Notes: generated from the sequence alone by a model not told the origin. 64,000 bases of DNA from Candidatus Obscuribacterales bacterium (GCA_019750335.1 JAIEOQ010000005.1:248001-312000); one strand, 5' to 3'; numbered from the stretch's first letter, positions 3,564 to 28,885 are shown. Numbers and translations are program-made.

Positions 3564-3744
3564 GGCTTTACTTTCAAGCGATCTACAATTGGCATTTTTG
3601 GGGTAGTTTTGCCACCATGTGTGACTATTGTGTGACGGTTGAAAAAAATTGAGTGGAAAATGATTTGGGCAGAAATGTAAGTCATATCCAGATCAAGAAA
3701 CGATCGAGTTCCGATGAACACATCCCCTGATTCTGGGGAAAGTA

Positions 3745-4055
3745 GCATTATCATTTGGCGGTAGCCGCCTACTCAGTCAGCAGACGCCGCAGCAGGTATC
3801 CATCTATACAATGTCGGCGTCGGCATAGAAATGCCAAGGTCACGGGCTACCTCTCGTGGTGGCATACCGGTGGCAAGAAGCTTTTTTGCCGATTTGATTT
3901 TGCTATCAGTCATAGTTCTCTTTCTACCACCAATTCGACCGAGCTTTCGGGCTGAAGCAAGGCCCGCCTTAGTCCGTTCCTGGGTGAGTTCCCTCTCCAT
4001 TTGAGTACATGAAAGAAAAACCGCCCAGCGGCTGTTGTAGTATCGATACCATCTG
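3745..4055 (-). pseudogene. Truncated serine recombinase (resolvase) copy
   Basis: Near-identical to 5525-5843 (C-terminal part of the intact resolvase), with small indels; homology stops at 4055 next to an IR-like TTTTTGCAACAGAGCC end. Confidence 0.85.
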
Positions 4056-4188
4056 TTTTTGCAACAGAGCCATTGCAAGCGTATTTGTAGGTTGACCCGG
4101 AAGATAAGCACCGGGCAATAACGACACTTAAGTGCTAGAGCCATTGCTGTATTAGCTGAGCTGTCTTTTACTGAGTGCTTATCGGTCA

Positions 4189-5495: not shown

Positions 5496-5552
5496 GTTGC
5501 TTTCCCTTGCATGGAAAAGGTCGAGCATCATCATTTGGCGGTAGCCGCCTAC

Positions 5553-6113
5553 TCAGTCAGCAGACGCCGCAGCGGGTATCCATCTATACAATGTCGGCAC
5601 AGAAATGCCAAGGTCACGGGCTACTTCTCGTGGTGGCATACCGGTGGCAAGAAGCTTTTTTGCCGATTTGATTTTGCTATCAGTCATAGTTCTCTTTCTA
5701 CCACCAATTCGACCGAGCTTTCGGGCTGAAGCAAGGCCCGCCTTAGTCCGTTCCTGGGTGAGTTCCCTCTCCATTTGAGCCAAGCTAGCCATTACATGAA
5801 AGAAAAACCGCCCAGCGGCTGTTGTAGTATCGATACCATCTGTGAGACTGCGGAAATTGATCTTTTCAGCATCAAGTTGCGCGACCAAATCAACCAGCCC
5901 CTTTACTGTTCGTCCTAAGCGATCAAGTTTCCACACTACAAGTGTGTCCTCCGCGCGCAAATGAGACAGAGTCTCATCTAAGCCAGGCCGATTCTTGTGC
6001 GCTCCACTTAGTTTATCCGTGAAAATACGCTTGCAGCCTGCCTTTTTCAGAGCATCCAACTGCAATTGAAGGCTCTGGTCATTCGTTGAAACTCGTGCAT
6101 AACCAATGAGCAT
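5553..6113 (-). CDS. Serine recombinase / resolvase-invertase family (complete)
   Basis: MLIGYARVSTNDQSLQLQLDAL..., DRLGRTVKGLVDLV, C-terminal HTH (PREVARDLGISVPTLYRW). Confidence 0.95.
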   Translation of the reverse strand: MLIGYARVSTNDQSLQLQLDALKKAGCKRIFTDKLSGAHKNRPGLDETLSHLRAEDTLVVWKLDRLGRTVKGLVDLVAQLDAEKINFRSLTDGIDTTTAAGRFFFHVMASLAQMERELTQERTKAGLASARKLGRIGGRKRTMTDSKIKSAKKLLATGMPPREVARDLGISVPTLYRWIPAAASAD

Positions 6114-6415: not shown

Positions 6416-6766
6416 TTGCACAGGAATAGGTCCGTGTCACCAGAACAGCTTCGCCAGTTTATTAGTTCCAAGATGTCTATATCTCACGTATATCAACCGG
6501 CGTTTATCATTGCGCTGTTAGAGAACCACGGACAGGCTTCCGTGGATCAGATCGCAAGAAAATGTGCTGACCTTGAGGGCGGCACTCCAGCAACATACGG
6601 ACCGAAATTGACAAAATATCCCAAAGAAGCACTTACCAAACACGGTGTCATAACGCCTGTCGGAAAGACCGAATTCAAGCTCACTACCGACATTACTCAA
6701 CTATCCCAGCAAGCCCGTCAAGAACTCAGCGACCTTTGTAAGCGCCGGATGGACAAGGTCAAGTAA
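6416..6766 (+). CDS. Hypothetical protein, winged-helix-like (116 aa)
   Basis: ORF with a wHTH-like pattern (FIIALLENHGQASVDQIARK...VITPVGKTEFKLT); 3' end overlaps the convergent methyltransferase gene. Confidence 0.5.
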   Translation: MHRNRSVSPEQLRQFISSKMSISHVYQPAFIIALLENHGQASVDQIARKCADLEGGTPATYGPKLTKYPKEALTKHGVITPVGKTEFKLTTDITQLSQQARQELSDLCKRRMDKVK

Positions 6767-8228
6767 CACCAGTCTTCCGAACACTGTGATCTTCAATCAC
6801 GACACCAGCACTGCCGAGTCTATCGGCCCAGCCCTTGCGATTACCGATAGTTGAGCCATTAACAAGAAGACCGAGTTCCTCTTCCTGGCGAGTGAGCTCT
6901 GCGAACTTCTCAAACAGAGGGTACGTGGGCGCGACAAAAGTCTCCTTCCGATGCAATATAGGCGGGTTCTGTGACTCTGTATAATCCGAATACTTCACAT
7001 GCAAGTCACGCAGATCTATGCGCATACTTGTTTTTAGAGAAGGATGAGCCTCGTCATCAAAATCTGGATAAAACAAGTAAGAAATTTTCGGTGCATCAAT
7101 GTGAAATTTGACAAGCGTGGCATCATCCATGCGTCCAACGGTGCGACTAGCACAGCCTTCATACAACCGAAGAATCAGATCGAGCTCTTCAAGCGCACTT
7201 ATATGAACGTACAGCGAGTCAGGCAACAGTTTGCCGATTTTACTGGTCGAGCATGTCTTAGCTATAATCCCAGGCTGTCCGAGACTGAACAACAGTTGAT
7301 CGGCATTATCGCAAGCAGATTTGTAAGAGCCAAAAAACGCCTTTATATCATTCTGCAACTCGCTTGCAAGCTGTCCAATTCGCGGCCGCTTGCCAAACTT
7401 GCTCAGTGCAATATAGAGAGAAAAATCCTGCTTTCTTTTCTGTATTAGTTCATCCCATTCTTCTCGACTCGTAGCTTCAACCACTAATTTGAATGCTCGG
7501 CTAAGCGAGCCTAATTCCTTCAAGATCTCAGCTTCGTTGCCTAGCTCCCCACGCAACGGTATACGTCCACGTTCACTAACAAAATCTATCAATGGTTGAA
7601 GTATGCTTTCACATTCCTCGAACGTCTTGATCTTAAGCCGGACTCGCGGTGTTGAACGCCGACTGTGAAAACGAGATGCGCGGAACGCTTCTGCGTCTTG
7701 ATCTCGACGAAATACAAAGTAAATTCCGAGCCCTGCCGGCACACAATCAACACCAAGCGTCGAGTCTATGTATTCCTTCAACTCCTCTTGCTTAAAGACC
7801 TTTTGGAACGTGTTTCTCTTTGTAAGAACGCCGTCCCCAAAGGCTACAACCTTGTCGCCCAAGTAATCCAAGAGTACTTGGGCAGACACAACCAAAACAG
7901 ATTTCGCCAGTGACCAGGCAGACCGCAGCACATCTTTGCGTTCTTCTGGATTTTCAATCACGTTCAGTACGTAGCCCAGGTTAACAACGTCAGCTGCTTT
8001 CCGCTCCGTGTCCGGACGGAAGTAAGGGTCCCATCCGGAGGCTATAGCACCAAGCGTCGCAATTCGCTCGACATCACCGCCGTGCCCACAACCGTAATCG
8101 AAAAATGTAACCGACTCCTTAAGAAATCCAGCCTCTACAGCCATCTTAACAGGACGAGACAAATCAGAACGAATTATCGCAGCCTTATGCCGGTCAATTT
8201 CTGTGCTCAACGACTGTTCGATCGACAT
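6759..8228 (-). CDS. DNA phosphorothioation-associated putative methyltransferase
   Basis: SAM-binding FFDYGCGHGGDVERIATLG...GWDPYFRP...VVNLGYVLNVIENPEER resembles the dnd-associated methyltransferase family; overlaps the upstream gene by 1 nt. Confidence 0.85.
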   Translation of the reverse strand: MSIEQSLSTEIDRHKAAIIRSDLSRPVKMAVEAGFLKESVTFFDYGCGHGGDVERIATLGAIASGWDPYFRPDTERKAADVVNLGYVLNVIENPEERKDVLRSAWSLAKSVLVVSAQVLLDYLGDKVVAFGDGVLTKRNTFQKVFKQEELKEYIDSTLGVDCVPAGLGIYFVFRRDQDAEAFRASRFHSRRSTPRVRLKIKTFEECESILQPLIDFVSERGRIPLRGELGNEAEILKELGSLSRAFKLVVEATSREEWDELIQKRKQDFSLYIALSKFGKRPRIGQLASELQNDIKAFFGSYKSACDNADQLLFSLGQPGIIAKTCSTSKIGKLLPDSLYVHISALEELDLILRLYEGCASRTVGRMDDATLVKFHIDAPKISYLFYPDFDDEAHPSLKTSMRIDLRDLHVKYSDYTESQNPPILHRKETFVAPTYPLFEKFAELTRQEEELGLLVNGSTIGNRKGWADRLGSAGVVIEDHSVRKTGVT

Positions 8229-9439
8229 CAGGCAATTGAGTCCTCCAAAGCATGCCAGCCAAGTGCCTTTCTAACCTCAGAAGCTGCCTGCGAGATGATG
8301 GACACGCATTGATCGACCTCTTCATCAGTTGTGAATTTCCCTATGCCTAACCGCAAGGCTGAGTCCTTCAGTTCGCTCTGCAGCTCCATAGCCGTAAGCA
8401 CATGTGATGGTTGTTCTATGCCAGATGAGCATGCCGCTCCCCGCGATATAGCTAGTACATCGCGAAGACGAGCGATCATAGCATCGTTCGTCGCACCAGG
8501 AATAGAAATGTGAAGACTCCCAGACAGCCGAGCATCCTGATCACCGTTCACGACCAGCGCTTCAATCCTCTGCTGTAAGTTATGCTGAAGACGATCTCTC
8601 AGGGCAGCGATTCTTGGTTCGTCAATTGTCATCTCTTCCGCGCGTAAGCGAGCTGCCTCCCCAAATCCAACTATACCAGGCACGTTAATCGTTCCTGGAC
8701 GAATTCCATATTCCTGATGGCCACCGCCAAACATGGCTTGTGGCAGTGAATCACGTTGTGAAATGAGGGCTCCCACCCCCTTCGGTCCATAAATCTTATG
8801 GGAGGACAACACCAAGTATGTCAGTCCCCACTCGTCGAACCGCACTGGAATTTTCCCTACCGCTTGTGACGCATCACAAAGCAAGGCGGTACCAGATTCG
8901 GTGCACAAGCGAGCAACCTCTTCCGTTGGGTAAATGTTGCCCACCTCGTTGTTAGCCGCCATTACGCATACAAGGTCTGCGTCGTTTCCCACTGCCTGAC
9001 GAAGGCTTTCAAGGCACAGACGACCCTGGCAATCCACTTTCAGATAGCTAATTTCCGCCAGACCCGATTCTGCGGCTATTTCACAACTCTCCAGAACTGC
9101 AGCATGCTCTGTAGGTGAACAGACCAGCTTAGCCTTCCTGTGACGTTCGCCCCTTTTAACAACGTGGTTGACCACCAAATTGATAGACTCGGTCGCACCT
9201 GAAGTGAACACCACTTTGGCGCGCTTGCCGTTCACTAACTCACTAACTTGCTTGCGTGCTACTTCAACGGCCTGGCCGGATTCCGTTCCCAAGACATGAT
9301 CGACGCTACTTGCATTACCAATTAACGACGTCATCGCTTCCGCCACGGCAGTCACAACTCTTGGATCTACCGGTGTGGTCGATAGATAATCGAAGAATAT
9401 TGGCTTCCTGTGATCCATGGTCATACTCAAAGGTGACAT
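8228..9439 (-). CDS. Cysteine desulfurase (SspA/DndA-like)
   Basis: Aminotransferase class V: SSHKIYGPKGVGAL PLP-lysine motif, RGAACSSG catalytic Cys region; in the PT operon. Confidence 0.92.
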   Translation of the reverse strand: MSPLSMTMDHRKPIFFDYLSTTPVDPRVVTAVAEAMTSLIGNASSVDHVLGTESGQAVEVARKQVSELVNGKRAKVVFTSGATESINLVVNHVVKRGERHRKAKLVCSPTEHAAVLESCEIAAESGLAEISYLKVDCQGRLCLESLRQAVGNDADLVCVMAANNEVGNIYPTEEVARLCTESGTALLCDASQAVGKIPVRFDEWGLTYLVLSSHKIYGPKGVGALISQRDSLPQAMFGGGHQEYGIRPGTINVPGIVGFGEAARLRAEEMTIDEPRIAALRDRLQHNLQQRIEALVVNGDQDARLSGSLHISIPGATNDAMIARLRDVLAISRGAACSSGIEQPSHVLTAMELQSELKDSALRLGIGKFTTDEEVDQCVSIISQAASEVRKALGWHALEDSIA

Positions 9440-10224
9440 GCCAGACAGGGCAAGGTGTCATCCTCATCATCCAAGACAGCTTCAAGTGCTTGCGCTAACG
9501 GTTGATTAGGGCGTCTAGCCACCTCTTGTAGCATTGCCTTTTCATGGTCTGCGATGATCGCTTCCTTCCGAGCCACAAGTTCTATTAGCGACTCGCCTTG
9601 GCTCCAAGTGAATGTCCGTCCGTCGCTGTGATTTTGCTCGTAAGCTACGGCTTGTGCAAATAAGTCTGGATGTTCCTCAGAAAGCCTAACCCACTCGTAC
9701 TTGCGCTGGAAAAAACAAAAGTAGCACCCCGACCGTGACCGCCACTTGTAATAAGACGGCATCCCTATTCCGCTTTCTTCCAATATGCGTATGATGTCAG
9801 CCTTTACCAACCCGTCTTCTTTGAACGGATAGACTGGCTTGATACTGGGCTTTGTAGAAATGTAGCCATCGCGCTTCTCGTCAGCGCGAATACCAATGTA
9901 ACTTACCGCTTCGTCATCTCCGATGAACTGTTCTAGTGGCTTAATTTTCAATTGCTTGGTGCACCACCGTATTTGGGGTGAGGGCAGCACACCACCGTAT
10001 ACATCTAGCCAATGGTCGAATCCGCGCTCGGCACTGAGGTAGGTTATTGTGATACCAAGCCGTGCCTTTAGCTTTTCCAGGTATTCATACGTTTCTGCCA
10101 GCTCTTTTTTTGTGTCGCAAAAAAAATACTCCATATTGGGCACTTTCTTGTGCATATAGACGGCAAGCGCTGCACTGTCTTTTCCGCCCGATAGACCCAA
10201 TACATGACGAATTGCCTTGCTCAT
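9427..10224 (-). CDS. Phosphoadenosine phosphosulfate reductase-like ATP pyrophosphatase (SspD/DndC-like)
   Basis: PP-loop LGLSGGKDSAALAVYM, RWCTKQLK motif, SGCYFC and C-terminal CLAC cysteines; 265 aa; overlaps both neighbours. Confidence 0.88.
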   Translation of the reverse strand: MSKAIRHVLGLSGGKDSAALAVYMHKKVPNMEYFFCDTKKELAETYEYLEKLKARLGITITYLSAERGFDHWLDVYGGVLPSPQIRWCTKQLKIKPLEQFIGDDEAVSYIGIRADEKRDGYISTKPSIKPVYPFKEDGLVKADIIRILEESGIGMPSYYKWRSRSGCYFCFFQRKYEWVRLSEEHPDLFAQAVAYEQNHSDGRTFTWSQGESLIELVARKEAIIADHEKAMLQEVARRPNQPLAQALEAVLDDEDDTLPCLACHL

Positions 10225-13200
10225 GCTTCACCTCTCCGGCTTCTCGATTCCGACCCGACCGCAGAAAGCAAACGTTCCGCAAGCTTAGATACCACCGCAT
10301 CATATAATTCCGGATTTGATTGCAGCTTTTCCCGAATGATCTCATCAACAATTCTGCTAACGCTTTGATCTTTGGCTGCATCGATCCACAGAATTTTTTG
10401 CGCTTCTTTCCCCGAAGATTGCGTCAACGTGATCTTTTTCGCTTCATATCCCGCACCTGGAGCATGCTGCAAGTTTGACTGAATTGACTCAAAGTTGTTG
10501 AAGCGTTTTGCGAATGTACCCACCCCTTCCTTGAATAGATCAAGGTCTTCATCACTCCAGGATTCGGCGGGTTTATCACCAATGATCATTAATAACCTGG
10601 TTAGCCAAACCCGATCATCCACATCATCGTCCACAATGTGCGAAACGAAGCTCGCAAATTCTCCATTGGGCATGTTCAAGGACAGAGTCTGTCCCCGCAT
10701 TCTAAGTGTTTGGCGCAATGAGGGTGCATTAATGCGAAATGCCTCACAAAGGAGCGCCTGGCACTCAGAAATCATTTCTTCGTGTGCGAGCTGCAGCTCC
10801 CGCAGGGCATTTAATAAGCCTAGTCGCAATTCTCGCGCCTTGCCTGTATTTTCTTTGTCTTTTGGAACTATCTCGGATAATCCCAACGCTTCGGGTATCG
10901 CTACAAACAACAGTTCATCTGGTTGTTTCGCGTTGATGATTGCATCCCGAACAGAAATAGCTTGTGCTGAAAGATTTCGTGTCCTCCTGGTATACGCCGG
11001 TAACGATTTAACAAATTGCACCAGTGGTTTCACCACACTAAGTAAACTTGCGTTCCTGCTTTTGCCGGGTTGTTTGTCGGGCCGCGACACCAGCTCTTCA
11101 ATTTCTTTGAAGACCTGAGCTCTCAAACCAGTTGTGACAAAGTGCTTCACAGCAAAACGACTTGGATCTTTTACAAGCAACTCGAAATGTTCTGGCCCAA
11201 GAATCGGCAAAAACGATCCGTCCTTGTAAATGCACACATCGTCACTGCGAGCTATTAGAACAGCCGCAAATAACACTGGAATAACCCCAGATTTGACACC
11301 ATACGGTGCCTTGGACAAAAGCTCATACAATTCCGACACCGTTCGCGGCGCCTCTACACTTTCAATGCAAAAATGTTCAATCGCATCCCAAACTGCTTGC
11401 ACTCCTGTATCTGTCGGAGCGCCGATTTCCCAACGATCGCTTTTACGAATCGGTCTATGGATGCCTGTTTTCTGCAAGACCGACTTATACATGCTTACTT
11501 CTGGTCCAAACCCCTTCAGACCGAGCTCGGGAACGTCGTGCTTCAACACCAGAGCTTCGATTAGCTCTCTGCGTGCCTTTGCTCCTTGCGAAGTCAATTC
11601 TCTGCGATTTATTAGCTCGTTATGCAATCGCGGTGTCGAGCCATAGACTTCGTCGGAAATGTCCGAAAGACAGGCAACCAAATGTCTATGTGATTTGATC
11701 GAACATTTCTCACCAATAACATAAGCCGTGGTGCCATTCTTGAACTCGAAACACTCTGACAGCACAGCATCTAGGTGCCGCTTTGCAATAAAAGTCCGTT
11801 GTCTGATCTCTCGTCGCGCCACTCCGTCGGTTTGCAACTCCGGCGATTCTTGCCGGATTCGTTGTAGAGCCGATAGCTCGTGCACTGCATTCTGGACGAC
11901 AGAAACATTCGATGCGTTCAGTAGAACTATTGGTTTCCCATCATTTGTGTAGTCCGGCGCACTTTTGCATCGCTCTGGACCAACCCAGAACAATACCAAC
12001 CCATCTGCAGTCGATGATTCTGTATTAAGTCCTTCTAACTCCTTCGCTTCGCTTACAAAACGCTGCTCTAAGTACCTAAACGTGCCGAACTGATAATTAT
12101 GTCGTTGCGGCACAACAGGGCCTAGCGGCGCTGATTTATTCAACAGATCAGACAGCGACCGCCTTTCCGCTTGAATAATTAGTTGCAACGATTGCTCAAT
12201 ATTGAAATCCGATCCTTCCCAGACCCGTAGCTCATCTAATTGTCTGCGATAGGTTATCAATCTCCGCTCTGCGATAGAGTCAATTAAATTCTTCCAGCGC
12301 TGCACTTCAAATTCATTGTCCGGCGCATCGCACATAGATAAAGCCACAAGGTTACGACTTGCCCGTAACGTGCCGGCACTTGCAATTAAGTTCAATATTC
12401 CAATTGCCTTAAGCAAACGGAGTTCGTCTGGATCAAGACCAATAGATTCCGTTATGCGTCCTTGGATCTCCACCCAACGACTTAAATGCGGACGCGAATG
12501 AATGTTGCTCCCAACTACATCCACAAAGTAGTCATACAGGCTGTCGAGCTTCATCATTGGCAGGGTATCCTTCGAAACCTCGTGGTTTTCCAGGAAGTGA
12601 GTAAATGAATGCGGCTCATCACTGGTCAAGAAAGTGAACAGCGAGCGGTCATTTTGAGCAAACCGATTACAGAGAAGTGGCAGTGCGACTGCCGCAATCG
12701 GATGCAATGGCATCAATTCAGCCAACATTGTTTCGTTTGACGAAAATTCAGGCACGATGCCGGCTATCTCGCGTTGCCAGCTTTTTGCACAGCTCTTTGT
12801 GAGCGTTCCCAGCCATTTTTCATTCGAGTATTCAATTGCTTGCGAAATAAGTCGAATAGCTTCACTGGCTGAGTTTGTAAAAGGTATGTCTTCAAATCTT
12901 CCTTGTATTTTCGACCACTCAGTACGCTGGGCACTCGATAATCCCTGACCATATTCCGCAAAACTTTGATGTAGCAGCCCAATTACAAAAATCGCGCTAT
13001 CAGGAGAAGGCGATTTGAATTCCGCAAGTTGTTGGAGCAAGTATAGATCGCCATCAGCTTGATGCAGCGCCGCGAACTCTAGCCCTTTGCCTAACTCATC
13101 CAAAACAATAACAACTCCGGTGCTTGCCACCCGAGCTACTTCTTCGACGAATTCTAAAACTACGCCGGAGTCAATAGTCGCATTCGCCTTGAGTCGCTTG

Positions 13201-13691
13201 CATTGATCCTGTAACGCGTAGAAAACATCCGGTTTCCGACCTGGCGCCTCCGACCAATATTCTTGAACCCCGCGATTTAGCGCCTTGAGCACCGTGTGTG
13301 CGACGGGCTCTCGCTGTGCTGTCGCGACAGCTCGCACAACGCCCCGAACTCCAATGCGACTAGCGAATTTAGATAAATCAGACTTGCCCCCTGCGCTCGC
13401 CGAATTCAATATCTGCTTGCCAGTTTTTCGCGAGGCGCTTTGTGACGGACCACAGAGACTCAACAAAAAATGAGCGAATGAAGACTTACCCGTTCCATAT
13501 GCGCCGGTTAACGTCCAGGCACGACTTGCTCTCTGCAATCCAATCGCTGAGAGAATCCTCTCAAGCGCGTGCGCACCTCTTGGAGTTACTACGTAACCTT
13601 CAAGGGCCTCAGCGCTGTCTAAATCTCGCTCCAAATTTATCGAGCGATAATATCGACGCTTCAGATGAATATGCTCGGAAAGCAGTGCCAT
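10221..13691 (-). CDS. Large P-loop ATPase of the Ssp-type PT modification operon (SspC-like)
   Basis: Walker A LTGAYGTGKSSFAHFLLSLCG, Walker B-like GVVIVLDELGKGLEF; 1156 aa; ATGA overlap with the SspD-like gene. Confidence 0.75.
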   Translation of the reverse strand: MALLSEHIHLKRRYYRSINLERDLDSAEALEGYVVTPRGAHALERILSAIGLQRASRAWTLTGAYGTGKSSFAHFLLSLCGPSQSASRKTGKQILNSASAGGKSDLSKFASRIGVRGVVRAVATAQREPVAHTVLKALNRGVQEYWSEAPGRKPDVFYALQDQCKRLKANATIDSGVVLEFVEEVARVASTGVVIVLDELGKGLEFAALHQADGDLYLLQQLAEFKSPSPDSAIFVIGLLHQSFAEYGQGLSSAQRTEWSKIQGRFEDIPFTNSASEAIRLISQAIEYSNEKWLGTLTKSCAKSWQREIAGIVPEFSSNETMLAELMPLHPIAAVALPLLCNRFAQNDRSLFTFLTSDEPHSFTHFLENHEVSKDTLPMMKLDSLYDYFVDVVGSNIHSRPHLSRWVEIQGRITESIGLDPDELRLLKAIGILNLIASAGTLRASRNLVALSMCDAPDNEFEVQRWKNLIDSIAERRLITYRRQLDELRVWEGSDFNIEQSLQLIIQAERRSLSDLLNKSAPLGPVVPQRHNYQFGTFRYLEQRFVSEAKELEGLNTESSTADGLVLFWVGPERCKSAPDYTNDGKPIVLLNASNVSVVQNAVHELSALQRIRQESPELQTDGVARREIRQRTFIAKRHLDAVLSECFEFKNGTTAYVIGEKCSIKSHRHLVACLSDISDEVYGSTPRLHNELINRRELTSQGAKARRELIEALVLKHDVPELGLKGFGPEVSMYKSVLQKTGIHRPIRKSDRWEIGAPTDTGVQAVWDAIEHFCIESVEAPRTVSELYELLSKAPYGVKSGVIPVLFAAVLIARSDDVCIYKDGSFLPILGPEHFELLVKDPSRFAVKHFVTTGLRAQVFKEIEELVSRPDKQPGKSRNASLLSVVKPLVQFVKSLPAYTRRTRNLSAQAISVRDAIINAKQPDELLFVAIPEALGLSEIVPKDKENTGKARELRLGLLNALRELQLAHEEMISECQALLCEAFRINAPSLRQTLRMRGQTLSLNMPNGEFASFVSHIVDDDVDDRVWLTRLLMIIGDKPAESWSDEDLDLFKEGVGTFAKRFNNFESIQSNLQHAPGAGYEAKKITLTQSSGKEAQKILWIDAAKDQSVSRIVDEIIREKLQSNPELYDAVVSKLAERLLSAVGSESRSRRGEA

Positions 13692-13697
13692 TAATTT

Positions 13698-14642
13698 TTA
13701 TCTCCGTATTGCTCCGAAATAGTTTCCTAGAATTGCCTCTGCAATCTTGGCTGGGTCTCCTGAAAATTGCAGCTGCACAACTCCGGCGGTGTCCGAGAGG
13801 ACTGTGTCTTTGCGTTTTGTTGCAACCGTTTCTAATGCCGAATAAAGAGCCGACTCCGACAATTTGAAAGCCAACCCGGGACCGCCATGTCCGTAGAGTA
13901 GTTGGGAAACGTTTATCGACTGCTCGCTTCTGCGTGTCTCACTGGCATATTCAAGCGATGCCGCTGCCACAATGTGCGGTGGCAAGTTTGACTTAGCACC
14001 GATGTGAAATGCAATGTGTTTACCACCTACCAGCCGAGTTAACAAATTGAGTCCCGCGAAAGGAGAACTAATCGTTTCCTCAGAGACATTTTTGCTTCCC
14101 TCCTCTCGGCAGTACATCCTCGTTAAGCAGGAGACGTCGTTCCCAAGCGTGGTTTCCGAGAAGCTTGAATCAGGCCAAGTAAGATCGATAAACCCTTGCA
14201 GCTCACTCAGTAGGTCGTCGGTGGAAAATTCAGGATGACGTAGATGGTTAAACACAAACGACCAAGTCGTAGCTGTACACGGGTTCTTCAAGAGCTTCCA
14301 ATGCAACAGCCAAAGTGAACCTTCGTCTTCCAAATACGGGTCCCACCCGGTATCCGAGAGTAACCTCTGGCCAAACTCTGTTGGTTCGACGTGTTTTGTC
14401 TTCGTTGCCTTATCTGTAACTTCTTCTGCAAGCTTGAATGCCAAACACCAATAGCGAATCGCTTTGGCCATGTTCTTCCCAACCCCAAGAACTATTGGCG
14501 CATCGTCACGGTTGAATACGGATACGTCCTTGCATAAGGCATCGAATCCCTTTTTCAACCAACCGTTTCGAGGAGGGAATGTTTCATGCCGAGCAAATGT
14601 TGGGCTGTTTCGTGTCTCATGCTGTAGTTGCACAACTGGCAT
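13698..14642 (-). CDS. DUF4007 family protein (SspB-like)
   Basis: SPTFARHETFPPRNGWLKKGFDAL...DAPIVLGVGKNMAKAIRYWCLAF is typical of DUF4007; first gene of the operon. Confidence 0.85.
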   Translation of the reverse strand: MPVVQLQHETRNSPTFARHETFPPRNGWLKKGFDALCKDVSVFNRDDAPIVLGVGKNMAKAIRYWCLAFKLAEEVTDKATKTKHVEPTEFGQRLLSDTGWDPYLEDEGSLWLLHWKLLKNPCTATTWSFVFNHLRHPEFSTDDLLSELQGFIDLTWPDSSFSETTLGNDVSCLTRMYCREEGSKNVSEETISSPFAGLNLLTRLVGGKHIAFHIGAKSNLPPHIVAAASLEYASETRRSEQSINVSQLLYGHGGPGLAFKLSESALYSALETVATKRKDTVLSDTAGVVQLQFSGDPAKIAEAILGNYFGAIRR

Positions 14643-15098
14643 TTGCTTCTCTCCCGCATATAACGAGTATCCGCCTCTTACTATGATCTAAATTCACTCT
14701 TAATTCAAGAAAAATATTCTATGCGTTCCGCTGTCAATGCCAATTTCAGCAAGCTTGCTTGATTGGAAATATCGCTTGGTAGATCAAACGTCTATCGATT
14801 TGCTATGCAAAAGTCAAAAGAGTGAACTTAATTTCTTTCTCACTGTCCAAGTGTCCCCATCTGTATGTATGGTATCGCAAAGCCTGGCGGATGACAACCA
14901 TTTTTGCCTTCTTGACTTGGAAACTGCTTTTCTGACTAGCTCGCCAGCTCGCCCAAACAGAACAAATGACCATTCTCTGGGCCTCATGATTGCGAAATGC
15001 GTGCACGCAGCGGCACTGTAGATATTCTGCAGTCTTGCAAAGTAAAATTAGTGACCATAAACATAGTGATCCGATTATCATTGGAATGATCAAAGCTA

Positions 15099-18000
15099 AT
15101 GCTTGTTATCCCTGATTGGTTATCTCTCAGAACAATTAACCCCGATGACTGCTCGCTGTTACTGGATTTCGCAAATGAATTCGGTATTCACAGCTTCGCT
15201 GACATCGACGTAGACATGCTGCGAACATGCACTCTCGCTAAAACCGATCTACCAACCTTCTTCAAATTTGTACGACTCCTGGGACTTTACGGAGCCTCTT
15301 TCGCTGGAAGCCTGTCACGATATTCAAGACCAACCACCCATAATCCAGTGCTCATAGATTTTCCAATTGGTGATAACCGCCTACTGCACGAATCATCGCT
15401 TGATCGTAATGCTGTCATTTTCCTGAACACACTCACTCTAAAGCGAATGGATTCACTGAGAGGAATTGGCTTAGACATTCTTGCCGAAGTCATCCAAGCA
15501 GACATAAGTGGCCTCATTCCTGCGATTAATTACGAAGGCGGCAGAATTATCGATGACTCTTCGATGCTTCAATATTTTTACGCACAACCATGCACCTCAC
15601 CAATGGAGCCACAGTCCGACGAACCCCGCGAATGCTTTCATGTACTTCAACGCAATAACAAAAATCCTGATGGCACGTCTCAAGTTGTATGTTCCGATTG
15701 CGGTCACGTAATATCCGATTCTGGTCCGGTGGTAAAAGAATCCATCCAAGCATATCCACAACAGTCGGAACCGTTGCTCGTTATCCCCTATCAGCTGACC
15801 GTCTTGGCTGAAAAAAGCATCCAACACCTCGACCTGAATGTAAGAGCATTCAACATACTCACGCGCAACAGGATTGCAACCGTAGGGCAACTAGCAAAAC
15901 TTACTGCCGAACAAATACGGTCATACAAAAATTGCGGACTGGACACCCTAAAACACATAAACGAGCGCCTAGAATCCTTTCTAACTTCCGAGCAATTACT
16001 TTCTCTCCGCTTCGGTACCGTGCCCACTCACGATGGCGATCAGACTCCACATCGCGTCATTGAAGAGCCGGAGGTTGATCTACCCAAGGTCGACCTAAAA
16101 GAACTGTTGGGCGATGAGCTTGCGGCGAATCTCGACGATTGTGCGCTGGATGACATCACTAAACTACGTGCACTACCAGCCGCAAGCTTCATTCTATTGC
16201 TGGGCAAAGACACAGGTCTCAAGGCTTGGTCCTTAGTCAATAACACTCAGCCCAGTCTTGACGAACCAATGCTTGGACTCGAAGCACCAGAGAGTGACCC
16301 AGCCGACCCCTCGTCATGCTCTCAGGCAGAGAATCCTCTTTTCCAACAGATCAAATCAGCACCTTTCTCTAACGACACAAAATCAGCTTTGGAGAGAAAC
16401 GGCTACACATACCTTTGGCAAATCTATGCTCCGCAAGTTCGCCAAGTCGTGATTGATCTTGGACACAGAGCTTGGGCAGAAACCTCCTCTTACGCCTTTA
16501 GGATAGGGTTAAGGACGCTTCCGTTAAAGCTCTCATCGACCGAATGCTTGCTGCACCAATTGATGCACATCTGCCTTCAGGTCGAAGCAAAGCTCCCTCA
16601 AATTTTGGACCATCGAAATCTGCAGATCTTTCGCGAACGCCGATTATCCTCTACCGGCAAACCTACCCTCGATGAGCTAGGACGAAAGTACAACGTCACA
16701 CGGGAAAGAATCAGACAAATCGAGGCGCGCTCGGTCAAAACAATCCAACGCTCCTTCTCGCCACTACTATCCCCAATAAAGAAACCGATCAGCGATTTGA
16801 TCCTTCAGCACGGCGGGGTGATGGAATGGACAACTTGCGTTATGCACGTAGACCATCGTGAAATCCTCAATGTCCTAATGGACGTTCTCGACATCGAAGT
16901 GTTTTTTGATGAACAGATAGATCTAATTTGGCATCGAGACTTACATCATGCTATCACCGAATCAGGCTCGAATATCTACGAATTGATAGCTCACCGTATC
17001 AGTAAAAATCTCAAGACCAGCGTCGACCTTGTTTCTCACGACCAGATCATAGAATCTGCGGCCACCACATTAACAGAAATCGCATCACAGAAATCGCGGC
17101 AGCAAATATCTACTCAAGTCATAAGCGCAATTGGTGCCGCAGTAACCAAAAACTATTTCGTAGAAACACAACTCGGTTCATTTAGGAAAAAGGACGTAGG
17201 TTTATTTGAACTCGTCACTTACGAATTCAGCCGCCAATTCCCGACCGGTGCCTTCATCTACAAGTCCGGAGAACAAATTTGGCAAACATTGTGCGCGGTT
17301 ATACCAGGATTGGAGAAACGAGGTGGCCCTCGGTACATCCAACAGGTCTTAACAAGAGACCACGACATTCTTCTTTGGGATACTGGATTTTATATTCACA
17401 AACAAAACATAAATCCCGATATGCAGCTTGTTCATGAGCTGATCAGCGACTGTATCAACGAATTCGACAAAGTCATTCCAGATCTCAAAGTACATTTGTT
17501 ATTCGACCGCAAGAAAGCTCGCTTAATCAAGGGCGGTATTCCTACCTCTGCGGCATTGTATTCACTCATGAGGTGCATTGCTCATGACAGGCTGATTTTG
17601 GACGACTATCCCAGAATCCGGGATGCTAGTGCTGCGGTCAAAAATCTCAAGCAAACCGAGCTTGTTGAGCAATTTGTAAAAGAAAATAGCCCGGTTTCGA
17701 AGAAACAGATTCTCAAATATTTTGGCGAAAGAGGGTGGCGCCCCTACGAAACCGAGAATACGCTAAGCCGCTGTGGTGACATTGTAAGAATAGGTACTAA
17801 CTTCCTCCACATCACCCATATCCAAGTTTCAAATGACGCGCTAGATGCACTGATACTAAAAATTGAGCAAGAGCTTGAGCAGTTAGCACACTTCAACATC
17901 CGACACATACGAGCCAAATACCCCATACTTTGGAATGCTGTCTGCAATCGCAATCTTGATCCCCACTCAATGGAGAAACTTCTCTCTAACTTGCAGCACG

Positions 18001-18707
18001 TAAAATTCAAAGTCACCCGATTGCAGGTCACTTTAGAAAACTCCATTGATCGTGCACTGAGCAAAGAAATTTCGGAATGGATTCGAGCTTACGGAAACTA
18101 TGTTTCTGTCGAACAATTGGAGAAGGAATTTTGTCAACAGAGGGGCTATAAACAGGGCTCCATCAAGATGGCCCTTTACTGGAGCGATTTGCTCTGCTGT
18201 TATAAAAACTGCTATGTCCATGCTGAAACAATCGGCTGCACGCCAGAAACCCTTGATTTAGTCAAGCAAACGCTACTCGATGCAAGTGATTGTCGCGCTA
18301 AAGATCGACTTCCCCATGTAAGCTTCGATTGGTTTCTTACAAATTATTTTTCCAAGCTGCCACCATTGAATGACCCTTTCGAATGGAACACACAACTTCT
18401 GATTTCTATCATTGAACAACTTGACATTGCCTATGTTTTCCATGAAGCCTTCGTACTCAAAGATAATGACTTTGACGTGGACGACTTCGATGATCTAATC
18501 GGTTATCTGATCGGAATGGTTTTTGATAACTACCGGATCGACCTTAAGAAAATTGAGAATTACACCAAAGCCCAAGGATTGCTCGACCTTGGCGCAGGCC
18601 TCAGAAGGGAAGATGTGTTTTTTGATGGCTCCTCTGTCGAATTAATTGACGAGGGACAATCAGTAATGCTCAGCTCAATTGGTAGGCAGAGGTATACCAA
18701 GGTATGA
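15099..18707 (+). CDS. 1202-aa protein with zinc-ribbon-like, RNAP alpha-CTD-like and sigma-70 region-4-like segments
   Basis: CFHVLQ...VVCSDCGHVI Cys cluster; LDLNVRAFNILTRNRIATVGQLAKLTAEQIRSYKNCGLDTLKHINERL (alpha-CTD/HhH-like); PTLDELGRKYNVTRERIRQIEARSVKTI (sigma region 4 HTH-like). Confidence 0.8.
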   Translation: MLVIPDWLSLRTINPDDCSLLLDFANEFGIHSFADIDVDMLRTCTLAKTDLPTFFKFVRLLGLYGASFAGSLSRYSRPTTHNPVLIDFPIGDNRLLHESSLDRNAVIFLNTLTLKRMDSLRGIGLDILAEVIQADISGLIPAINYEGGRIIDDSSMLQYFYAQPCTSPMEPQSDEPRECFHVLQRNNKNPDGTSQVVCSDCGHVISDSGPVVKESIQAYPQQSEPLLVIPYQLTVLAEKSIQHLDLNVRAFNILTRNRIATVGQLAKLTAEQIRSYKNCGLDTLKHINERLESFLTSEQLLSLRFGTVPTHDGDQTPHRVIEEPEVDLPKVDLKELLGDELAANLDDCALDDITKLRALPAASFILLLGKDTGLKAWSLVNNTQPSLDEPMLGLEAPESDPADPSSCSQAENPLFQQIKSAPFSNDTKSALERNGYTYLWQIYAPQVRQVVIDLGHRAWAETSSYAFRIGLRTLPLKLSSTECLLHQLMHICLQVEAKLPQILDHRNLQIFRERRLSSTGKPTLDELGRKYNVTRERIRQIEARSVKTIQRSFSPLLSPIKKPISDLILQHGGVMEWTTCVMHVDHREILNVLMDVLDIEVFFDEQIDLIWHRDLHHAITESGSNIYELIAHRISKNLKTSVDLVSHDQIIESAATTLTEIASQKSRQQISTQVISAIGAAVTKNYFVETQLGSFRKKDVGLFELVTYEFSRQFPTGAFIYKSGEQIWQTLCAVIPGLEKRGGPRYIQQVLTRDHDILLWDTGFYIHKQNINPDMQLVHELISDCINEFDKVIPDLKVHLLFDRKKARLIKGGIPTSAALYSLMRCIAHDRLILDDYPRIRDASAAVKNLKQTELVEQFVKENSPVSKKQILKYFGERGWRPYETENTLSRCGDIVRIGTNFLHITHIQVSNDALDALILKIEQELEQLAHFNIRHIRAKYPILWNAVCNRNLDPHSMEKLLSNLQHVKFKVTRLQVTLENSIDRALSKEISEWIRAYGNYVSVEQLEKEFCQQRGYKQGSIKMALYWSDLLCCYKNCYVHAETIGCTPETLDLVKQTLLDASDCRAKDRLPHVSFDWFLTNYFSKLPPLNDPFEWNTQLLISIIEQLDIAYVFHEAFVLKDNDFDVDDFDDLIGYLIGMVFDNYRIDLKKIENYTKAQGLLDLGAGLRREDVFFDGSSVELIDEGQSVMLSSIGRQRYTKV

Positions 18708-28500: not shown

Positions 28501-28885
28501 GCTCATAGTGGTAATTACCTAAACTTGATTCTCCTGGCACTTTAATAAGAAAGTCGGCATAACCAGCAAAATTTTGATCGCGCAACGCCGCTTGATAAAC
28601 TACTTCTTTGCCTTCTTGCATGGCCGTGAGAGTGGCTGCAAATTTGTCAGATTCTGATGAAACATCAACTACTTCACGTCCCTGACTTTTCAATTGATCA
28701 ACGAATGCTCTCTCGTGATCAAGACCCAGATTTTGTAAAATTTTACTGGTTGCATCATCTTCGTCTGGTTGATAAGTTCCAGGAAACTCAAGATGATACC
28801 TGTTCATCCAAGTAACAAATTCTGATTCCATGAAGCGAATCAGATCGGATGGGGAGAATATGAGCTGCTCGGATTGTTTTTGCAT
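25514..28885 (-). CDS. TM0106 family RecB-like nuclease fused to a DNA2/UPF1-like SF1 helicase
   Basis: N-terminal RecB-like region (YADFLIKV...YEPWDTKLA), RNase H-like YFDMEGYP, Walker A IQGPPGSGKTYTAAKAI, DEAGQ, ISRAK helicase motif. Confidence 0.9.
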   Translation of the reverse strand: MQKQSEQLIFSPSDLIRFMESEFVTWMNRYHLEFPGTYQPDEDDATSKILQNLGLDHERAFVDQLKSQGREVVDVSSESDKFAATLTAMQEGKEVVYQAALRDQNFAGYADFLIKVPGESSLGNYHYEPWDTKLALKSKPYFLIQLACYADMLRLAQDHLPRNVHVVLGDKRVHSLRTEDYLYFYRQLRQALLHQQQNFDSNNPPDFIGLEEFGRWTTHAKELMEKKDHLCRVANIRTVQIKKLYAVGINTMTDIAQSRLSTIPKMQEPIFATLKQQARLQIESKGLPKPKFEIVQPQTKGFGLTLLPPTSPLDVYFDMEGYPLTEGGLEYLFGATIINNGKPEFIDWWAHTGEEEKLAFETFIDWLYKRWQKDPLMHVYHYASYEKTALRKLMGKYGTKENEVDALLRNEVFVDLYTVVRQSLKVGEPSYSIKNIERLYKEKREGDVATALDSVVFYQRWLDERDGNDWQTSEILRQIRNYNNDDCDSTWQLAEWLRVLQHEHGIRWQAKELKEAKDTKSAQARAAATELALKMLEDIPVDPNKKTENMRIRELLAHLLEFHWREAKPVFWAKYDRHEMTEEELFDDPGCLAGLVRTDTARRQVARSYLYDYRFDPNQDTKIDSEDSCFYAHDLEESITVAEIDVDKGRVSLKRATHLAAPPNKLSLIKNEYVDATAIAQSICQTANAFLKGKELPSALNDFLCRRRPRISGLESGALIQPEQDLTSGAVDIISKLQNSYLCIQGPPGSGKTYTAAKAIVELLKQGKRVGVTSNSHKAIAKLMDDVATEADECKITLRAAKLQSDNDNFHVESNKIQPLKPKDFFESHTRSITLVGGTAWAFSDTRAVGLLDYLFVDEAGQVSLANLVGVAPSARNLILIGDQMQLSQPLQGTHPGESGQSILDYLLQGKQIIPDDLGIFLGVTRRLHPDVCKFISGAIYEDRLKPFADTEQRVVKLPASSNGPALKPSGILYVPVVHEGNSQDSEEEAAAIVQIVQELLKCSFADGETIKPVDLNHILIVAPYNMQVRRLKTCIPGAKVGSVDKFQGQEAPIVIVSMCSSTGDASPRGLEFIFSKNRLNVAISRAKSLAIVVGSPALARTHCNRIEQIELVNLFCRIVNHA

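Follow-up and report, generated by a model that had tools for sequence, protein, structure and literature searches.

What does a 1202-aa protein built from pieces of the transcription machinery do at the head of an operon for phosphorothioate (PT)-associated defence? We examined this question for a gene, here called X, within a window of 64,000 nt (the whole stretch of DNA analysed) from Candidatus Obscuribacterales bacterium (GCA_019750335.1, JAIEOQ010000005.1:248001-312000). The gene order is X-pbeA-pbeB-pbeC-pbeD with sspBCDA divergent; the adjoining sspBCDA genes and a 4-nt overlap of X into pbeA (ATGA) bear out an earlier note on this DNA, which had placed X at the head of a PT effector operon. 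Our main reading, to which we assign a probability of roughly 55%, makes X one of the five subunits of a Pbe effector (X-PbeABCD): a fast-evolving protein without catalytic activity that recognises DNA and serves as a scaffold. The genes of the locus are as follows.

15099..18707, + strand: X, a 1202-aa multi-DNA-binding-domain protein that leads the X-pbeABCD operon
18704..20815, + strand: PbeA, HKD/PLD-like with SF2 helicase (PADLOC PbeA, E 5e-208)
20832..21026, + strand: PbeB candidate of 64 aa, called by position and size only
21023..23065, + strand: PbeC, CxC-type ABC ATPase (PADLOC PbeC, E 1.1e-148)
23058..23543, + strand: PbeD candidate, a DndE-like small protein, called by position and a weak TIGR04062 match
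13698..14642, - strand: SspB (DUF4007) of the divergent modification module (Pfam E 3.9e-92; PADLOC SspB E 3.3e-107)
10221..13691, - strand: SspC, BrxC-like ATPase (PADLOC SspC, 1292.7 bits)
9427..10224, - strand: SspD, PAPS-reductase type (PADLOC SspD, E 1.8e-116)
8228..9439, - strand: SspA/DndA cysteine desulfurase (PADLOC SspA, E 1.3e-120)
6759..8228, - strand: PT-associated putative methyltransferase (TIGR04096, E 4.6e-196, over cut-off)
23561..24811, - strand: DndB-like DGQHR protein (TIGR03187 over cut-off; PF14072, E 3.8e-34)

PbeA carries HxK at aa 148, a Walker A motif (GSGKT) and DEVH, and it matches TIGR04095 at E 9e-141, under that model's cut-off. PbeC contains the Walker A motif GANGYGKT and the CIC at aa 350. 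The PbeB candidate compares with 66 aa for the archaeal PbeB in the text of PMC6459918, and the PbeD candidate scores 29.8 bits (E 5.5e-07) against TIGR04062 dnd_assoc_4, whose cut-off is 74.25. Whether the DndB-like DGQHR gene, convergent with the X-pbe operon, belongs to the system is uncertain. Near the system, positions 25514-28885 (- strand) encode a RecB-like nuclease/helicase (TIGR03491). The window also contains direct repeats (3744-4056 and 5524-5843, 97-100% identical) with a Fic gene between them, one copy lying inside an intact resolvase gene and the other inside a degraded resolvase copy.

The reading frame of X is uninterrupted over 1202 aa, and the opposite-strand frame is interrupted by stops. 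Four segments can be delimited within it, all on the + strand.

15633..15701: possible small Zn ribbon, C179-x-H181-x16-C198-x2-C201 (PF08271, sub-threshold)
15807..15974 (aa 237-292): alpha-CTD (HhH), Pfam PF03118
16605..16745 (aa 503-549): complete sigma-70 region 4, Pfam PF04545
16764..18248: winged-helix array (~aa 556-620, 700-775, 776-846, 850-912 and 985-1050; boundaries approximate)

The alpha-CTD-like and sigma region-4-like modules that had been noticed by eye are real: both exceed their Pfam thresholds (PF03118: E 6.2e-11, 42.3 bits, cut-off 23.8; PF04545: E 4e-07, 29.9 bits, cut-off 24.1), and PDB sequence and fold searches concur. The PDB sequence search with X returned sigma factors (aa ~496-551) and RpoA (aa ~236-293) and no other matches, while the X family profile A5 reached a best E of 6e-22 against sigma factors of known structure. 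R249 and N252 are the alignment equivalents of E. coli RpoA R265 and N268, and the recognition helix TRERIRQIE of the sigma-4 domain is intact (aa 534-542). The structural comparison that the earlier note had proposed for these two modules came out in their favour: AlphaFold segments of X superpose on both folds, with an rmsd of 0.6-1.0 Å over 54-60 columns for PDB RpoA CTDs (probability 1.00, TMt up to 0.91) and best values of 1.3-2.2 Å for sigma-A region 4 structures (probability 1.00). X is nevertheless neither a sigma-70 factor nor an RNAP alpha subunit in Pfam and NCBIfam, where only region 4 but not region 2 (core and -10 binding), and only the CTD but not the N-terminal assembly domain, were matched.

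The C-terminal half of about 700 aa, in which no motif had been recognised before, proved to be a winged-helix (wHTH) array. Its AlphaFold model and predicted secondary structure consist of repeating units that are rich in helix and end in a beta hairpin, which we read as ~5 winged helices; the top fold match is a SelB tandem winged helix (E 1.9e-03), followed at lower strength by UFL1/DDRGK1 and a Pol III subunit. Direct evidence for repeated units comes from a profile of the two central wHTH units of X, which gives a second match immediately downstream in several homologues. The models were built from shallow alignments (mean pLDDT 40.6 for the N-terminal and 60.9 for the C-terminal piece), and their usable parts are the alpha-CTD (pLDDT about 70-77), sigma-4 and some wHTH blocks. 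Since every fold-search E exceeds 1e-3, the fold matches are supportive rather than stand-alone, and those of sub-domains rest on probability, rmsd and sequence.

The cysteine cluster reported upstream fared less well. VVCSDCGHVI is present (C198 and C201, with C179-x-H181 as a possible partner), but the Zn-ribbon match stays sub-threshold (E 0.08), and in the alignment CxxC is absent throughout the X of L006, the nearest complete relative. As the CxxC pairs of other homologues sit at different places, we rejected a Zn finger as a family trait. X lacks a Walker A motif in a motif scan and an enzyme family match in Pfam, NCBIfam and PADLOC. A lone PD...DxK-like string in the wHTH region was regarded as chance and not counted as a nuclease.

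Direct searches with X in 382 genomes from the class found 2 relatives, and those in the genome collection 4 loci. A second search of sampled genomes relied on a profile confined to the central wHTH units, from which sigma-4 and the alpha-CTD had been omitted; in other phyla it recovered X-like proteins with lengths of about 914-1320 aa. All 11 aligned homologue rows, most of them found in this way, have a sigma-4-like segment (one degenerate); because sigma-4 lay outside the search profile, its recurrence independently supports the X architecture. At seven loci (window, L006 and, from five Bacillota genomes, L029, L031, L032, L033 and L034), X lies directly 5' of PbeA with a spacing of -8 to +8 nt. 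PADLOC confirmed PbeA in the window, L006, L029, L033 and L034 and PbeC in the window, L029, L033 and L034; both proteins of L031 and L032 were identified by BLAST to the window proteins. X-like proteins without PbeA nearby occur at L008, L030 and L035 and in Cetobacterium. Window X had no relatives in viral contigs or plasmids, L031 X none in phages and L032 X none in plasmids; L034 X found plasmid relatives in Cetobacterium only. A 1153-aa protein with two tandem C-terminal alpha-CTD-like domains (L135:4007-7468, genome G674) was considered and set aside, as the X profile does not match it.

We sampled 399 genomes from a single phylum, taken to be Bacillota in view of the Peptostreptococcaceae title of L007. 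X was present in 7 of them, PbeA in 24 and both in 5 (Fisher p 1e-5), with X and PbeA adjacent in 5/5 co-occurring genomes. This census comprises small samples and few genomes, some of them fragmented. On the PbeA tree the X label requires 2 changes, compared with a shuffled mean of 6.3, and 0/500 shuffles were that low; the identity matrices of X and PbeA correlate with r 0.55, a value reached by 66/5040 permutations. X evolves fast, with pairwise identities of 15-24% as against 30-52% for PbeA, and its best-conserved stretch is the sigma-4 HTH (mean identity 49%, versus 12-22% in other X regions). The X operon order is conserved, X is co-inherited with PbeA, and the sigma-4 helix is under strong constraint. 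As X is missing from most sampled PbeA loci (19/24 PbeA-bearing genomes), Pbe systems generally can do without it. X is a real, conserved and apparently undescribed candidate subunit of one Pbe branch: no description of it was found in the text searched, which included that of PMC6459918, PMC8092258, PMC10853773 and PMC12839542.

In the mechanism that we propose, the alpha-CTD-type HhH domain, the complete sigma region 4 and the ~5 winged helices, all on one polypeptide, would contact target DNA. X would then dock the HKD-nuclease/SF2 helicase PbeA there, along with the CxC ABC ATPase PbeC and the DndE-like PbeD. We infer complex formation, a targeting role, reading of sequence and antiphage activity for X from its domains and its genomic company. 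Conservation of the sigma-4 helix suggests that it reads something specific, and a literature parallel exists in PglW, whose alpha-CTD and three wHTH domains form the recognition half according to the text of PMC12839542. In the window, the self mark would probably be the phosphorothioate made by the neighbouring SspABCD, because the ssp genes lie beside X-pbe and archaeal PbeABCD has been published as PT-dependent (text of PMC6459918).

This arrangement raises the possibility that X itself reads phosphorothioate and distinguishes self from non-self for PbeABCD. X indeed stands beside Ssp genes in the window and at L006; at L007:202-2667, an 821-aa homologue heads a BREX type 4 operon (BrxP-BrxC-PglZ-BrxL) and thus lies beside the BrxP of a PT-type BREX; and the PT-reading SBD domain is itself a wHTH (text of PMC10853773). 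Nevertheless, five Bacillota genomes with X-Pbe gave no DUF4007/SspB or DndC match, an absence that is not absolute, as the DUF4007 model missed a fused copy in the L007 genome. Sampled Bacillota Ssp-Pbe hybrids, conversely, manage without X. We therefore consider an X that tells self from non-self by PT very doubtful and PT reading as its general role unlikely, so that PT sensing, one of the ideas of the earlier note, is not supported as its core role. Contact of X with DNA is itself unlikely to be PT-dependent, given the missing matches in the Bacillota X-Pbe genomes. As X-Pbe operons occur where PT genes were not found, the effector appears separable from PT chemistry.

The Ssp-Pbe hybrid, with Ssp-type genes directly 5' of PbeABCD and no X, is recurrent (L062, L063, L064, L066, L067, L069, L071 and L072), and L068 is a hybrid with an extra gene; the Ssp calls in these loci were made by position and first residues, with no profile. 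Separately, a radical-SAM gene adjoins PbeD in three X-Pbe operons (L031:15986-18043, L029:2353-3837 and L032:1777-3810), called by a Pfam match for L031 and by a similar start for L029 and L032. Its product is a possible DNA modification enzyme replacing PT.

A protein this rich in HTH domains could, instead of being an effector subunit, regulate transcription of the divergent ssp/pbe locus. X is the first gene, separated from the divergent ssp genes in the window by an intergenic region of 456 nt, around which 3 promoter-like sites were found versus 0.8 expected. These sites are weak consensus matches, however, and the promoter and repeat scan of 14600-15130 likewise gave weak matches that are uninformative. 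The size of X is unusual for a regulator, X is co-inherited with PbeA, and at L006 a divergent promoter region is missing altogether: SspC and SspA lie upstream of X, which starts 22 nt past sspA in the same direction. A purely regulatory X is thus quite improbable in our estimation, although regulatory and subunit roles are not exclusive.

The nature of the sigma-4 and alpha-CTD modules suggests another option, in which promoters or RNA polymerase itself would be the site of action: X would either steer the Pbe nuclease to promoter-like DNA (UP plus -35) or serve as a decoy or guard for phage proteins that seize host transcription through sigma-4 binding or modification of alpha-CTD Arg265. 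Within this fast-evolving protein, constraint is strongest on the sigma-4 HTH, whose TRERIRQ-type recognition helix is intact or nearly so in 11/12 rows; the Arg265/Asn268 equivalents are retained in the window, L006, L029 and L030; and PDB 3n97, which holds an alpha-CTD and sigma-4 together on one UP/-35 DNA, is matched by each half of X. Both module types are phage targets, since T4 Alt/ModA modify alpha Arg265 and AsiA binds sigma-4 (PMC2988021). Moreover, the Pbe operons of L063 and L065 hold a divergent sigma-70 gene (regions 2 and 4) directly 3' of PbeD. Against this option, X has no sigma-2 or sigma-3, L033 and L034 carry HhH arrays in place of a clear alpha-CTD, and the sigma-4 segment of L032 is the degenerate one. 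A decoy might be expected to resemble its own host, yet the X modules are not clearly nearer to their own RpoD or RpoA than to those of others: own-host ranks were 1-11 of 13 (mean 5.4) for sigma-4 versus RpoD and 1, 9, 3, 5 and 1 of 11 for the alpha-CTD versus RpoA. We rejected the host-mimicking decoy on these grounds and regard action at promoters or RNA polymerase overall as a tentative, rather unlikely alternative. The same mixed evidence makes interference with phage transcription, the second idea of the earlier note, conceivable.

A more specific version would combine these modules with the Pbe effector: X might aim the nuclease-helicase complex at promoters, or sense phage takeover such that sigma-4 binders or Arg265 modifiers trigger PbeABCD. 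This version fits the persistence of the recognition helix and, in several members, of the Arg265 equivalent, as well as the occurrence of sigma-70 as a gene of its own in related Pbe operons, whereas the lack of host tracking counts against its decoy form; we judge it unlikely. If the promoter modules of X work as they do in RNA polymerase, promoters or the takeover of transcription would be the target of the defence. The sigma-70 genes following PbeD (L063:11062-12150, + strand; L065:11254-12354, + strand) are not housekeeping RpoD (about 157-159 versus 409-411 bits), and a third Pbe operon has a divergent sigma-70 gene (regions 2 and 4) ~1.5 kb downstream (L075:230-1339, - strand).

Returning to X as the DNA-recognition and scaffold subunit, we compared it with known systems. 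SspFGH (text of PMC8092258) is likewise a multi-gene effector beside sspBCD, but SspF has the Walker A motif GXXXXGK[S/T] there, which X lacks, and the partners of X are PbeA-D; we therefore rejected X as an SspF. MzaA of the Mza system is likewise a defence protein with a sigma-4 HTH (PADLOC E 5e-06, NCBIfam E 3.2e-09), but only ~50 residues match and the NF041931 score is 36.2 bits against a cut-off of 800, so that X is not an MzaA. A Cetobacterium "sigma factor-like helix-turn-helix DNA-binding protein" (RefSeq) is a distant homologue reached via L034 X (20% identity, E 2e-17), differing in its length of 610 aa and in its neighbourhood, where it adjoins a UvrD helicase and no Pbe genes are annotated. 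The DndG/SspB triple-wHTH proteins show a general wHTH likeness to X. PglW of type 2 BREX has a similar layout, with several wHTH domains behind an alpha-CTD-like domain (text of PMC12839542), but X has sigma-4 and no NERD nuclease or kinases. In line with this, X gave no NERD or Ser/Thr kinase match in Pfam, the PADLOC PglW match is limited to 63 residues, and X as a PglW was rejected.

The PbeABCD/CxC ABC-ATPase systems (text of PMC6459918 and PMC10853773) resemble the window operon in PbeA and PbeC, which are strong profile matches, and in the CxC of PbeC, whereas the likeness of the PbeB candidate is one of position and size and that of the PbeD candidate one of position and a weak match. 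The window operon differs in the extra 1202-aa gene at its head and in its modification partner, which is Ssp, not Dnd. The mode of action of the Pbe/CxC systems is disputed (text of PMC10853773), and X offers a candidate fifth subunit for one branch of them.
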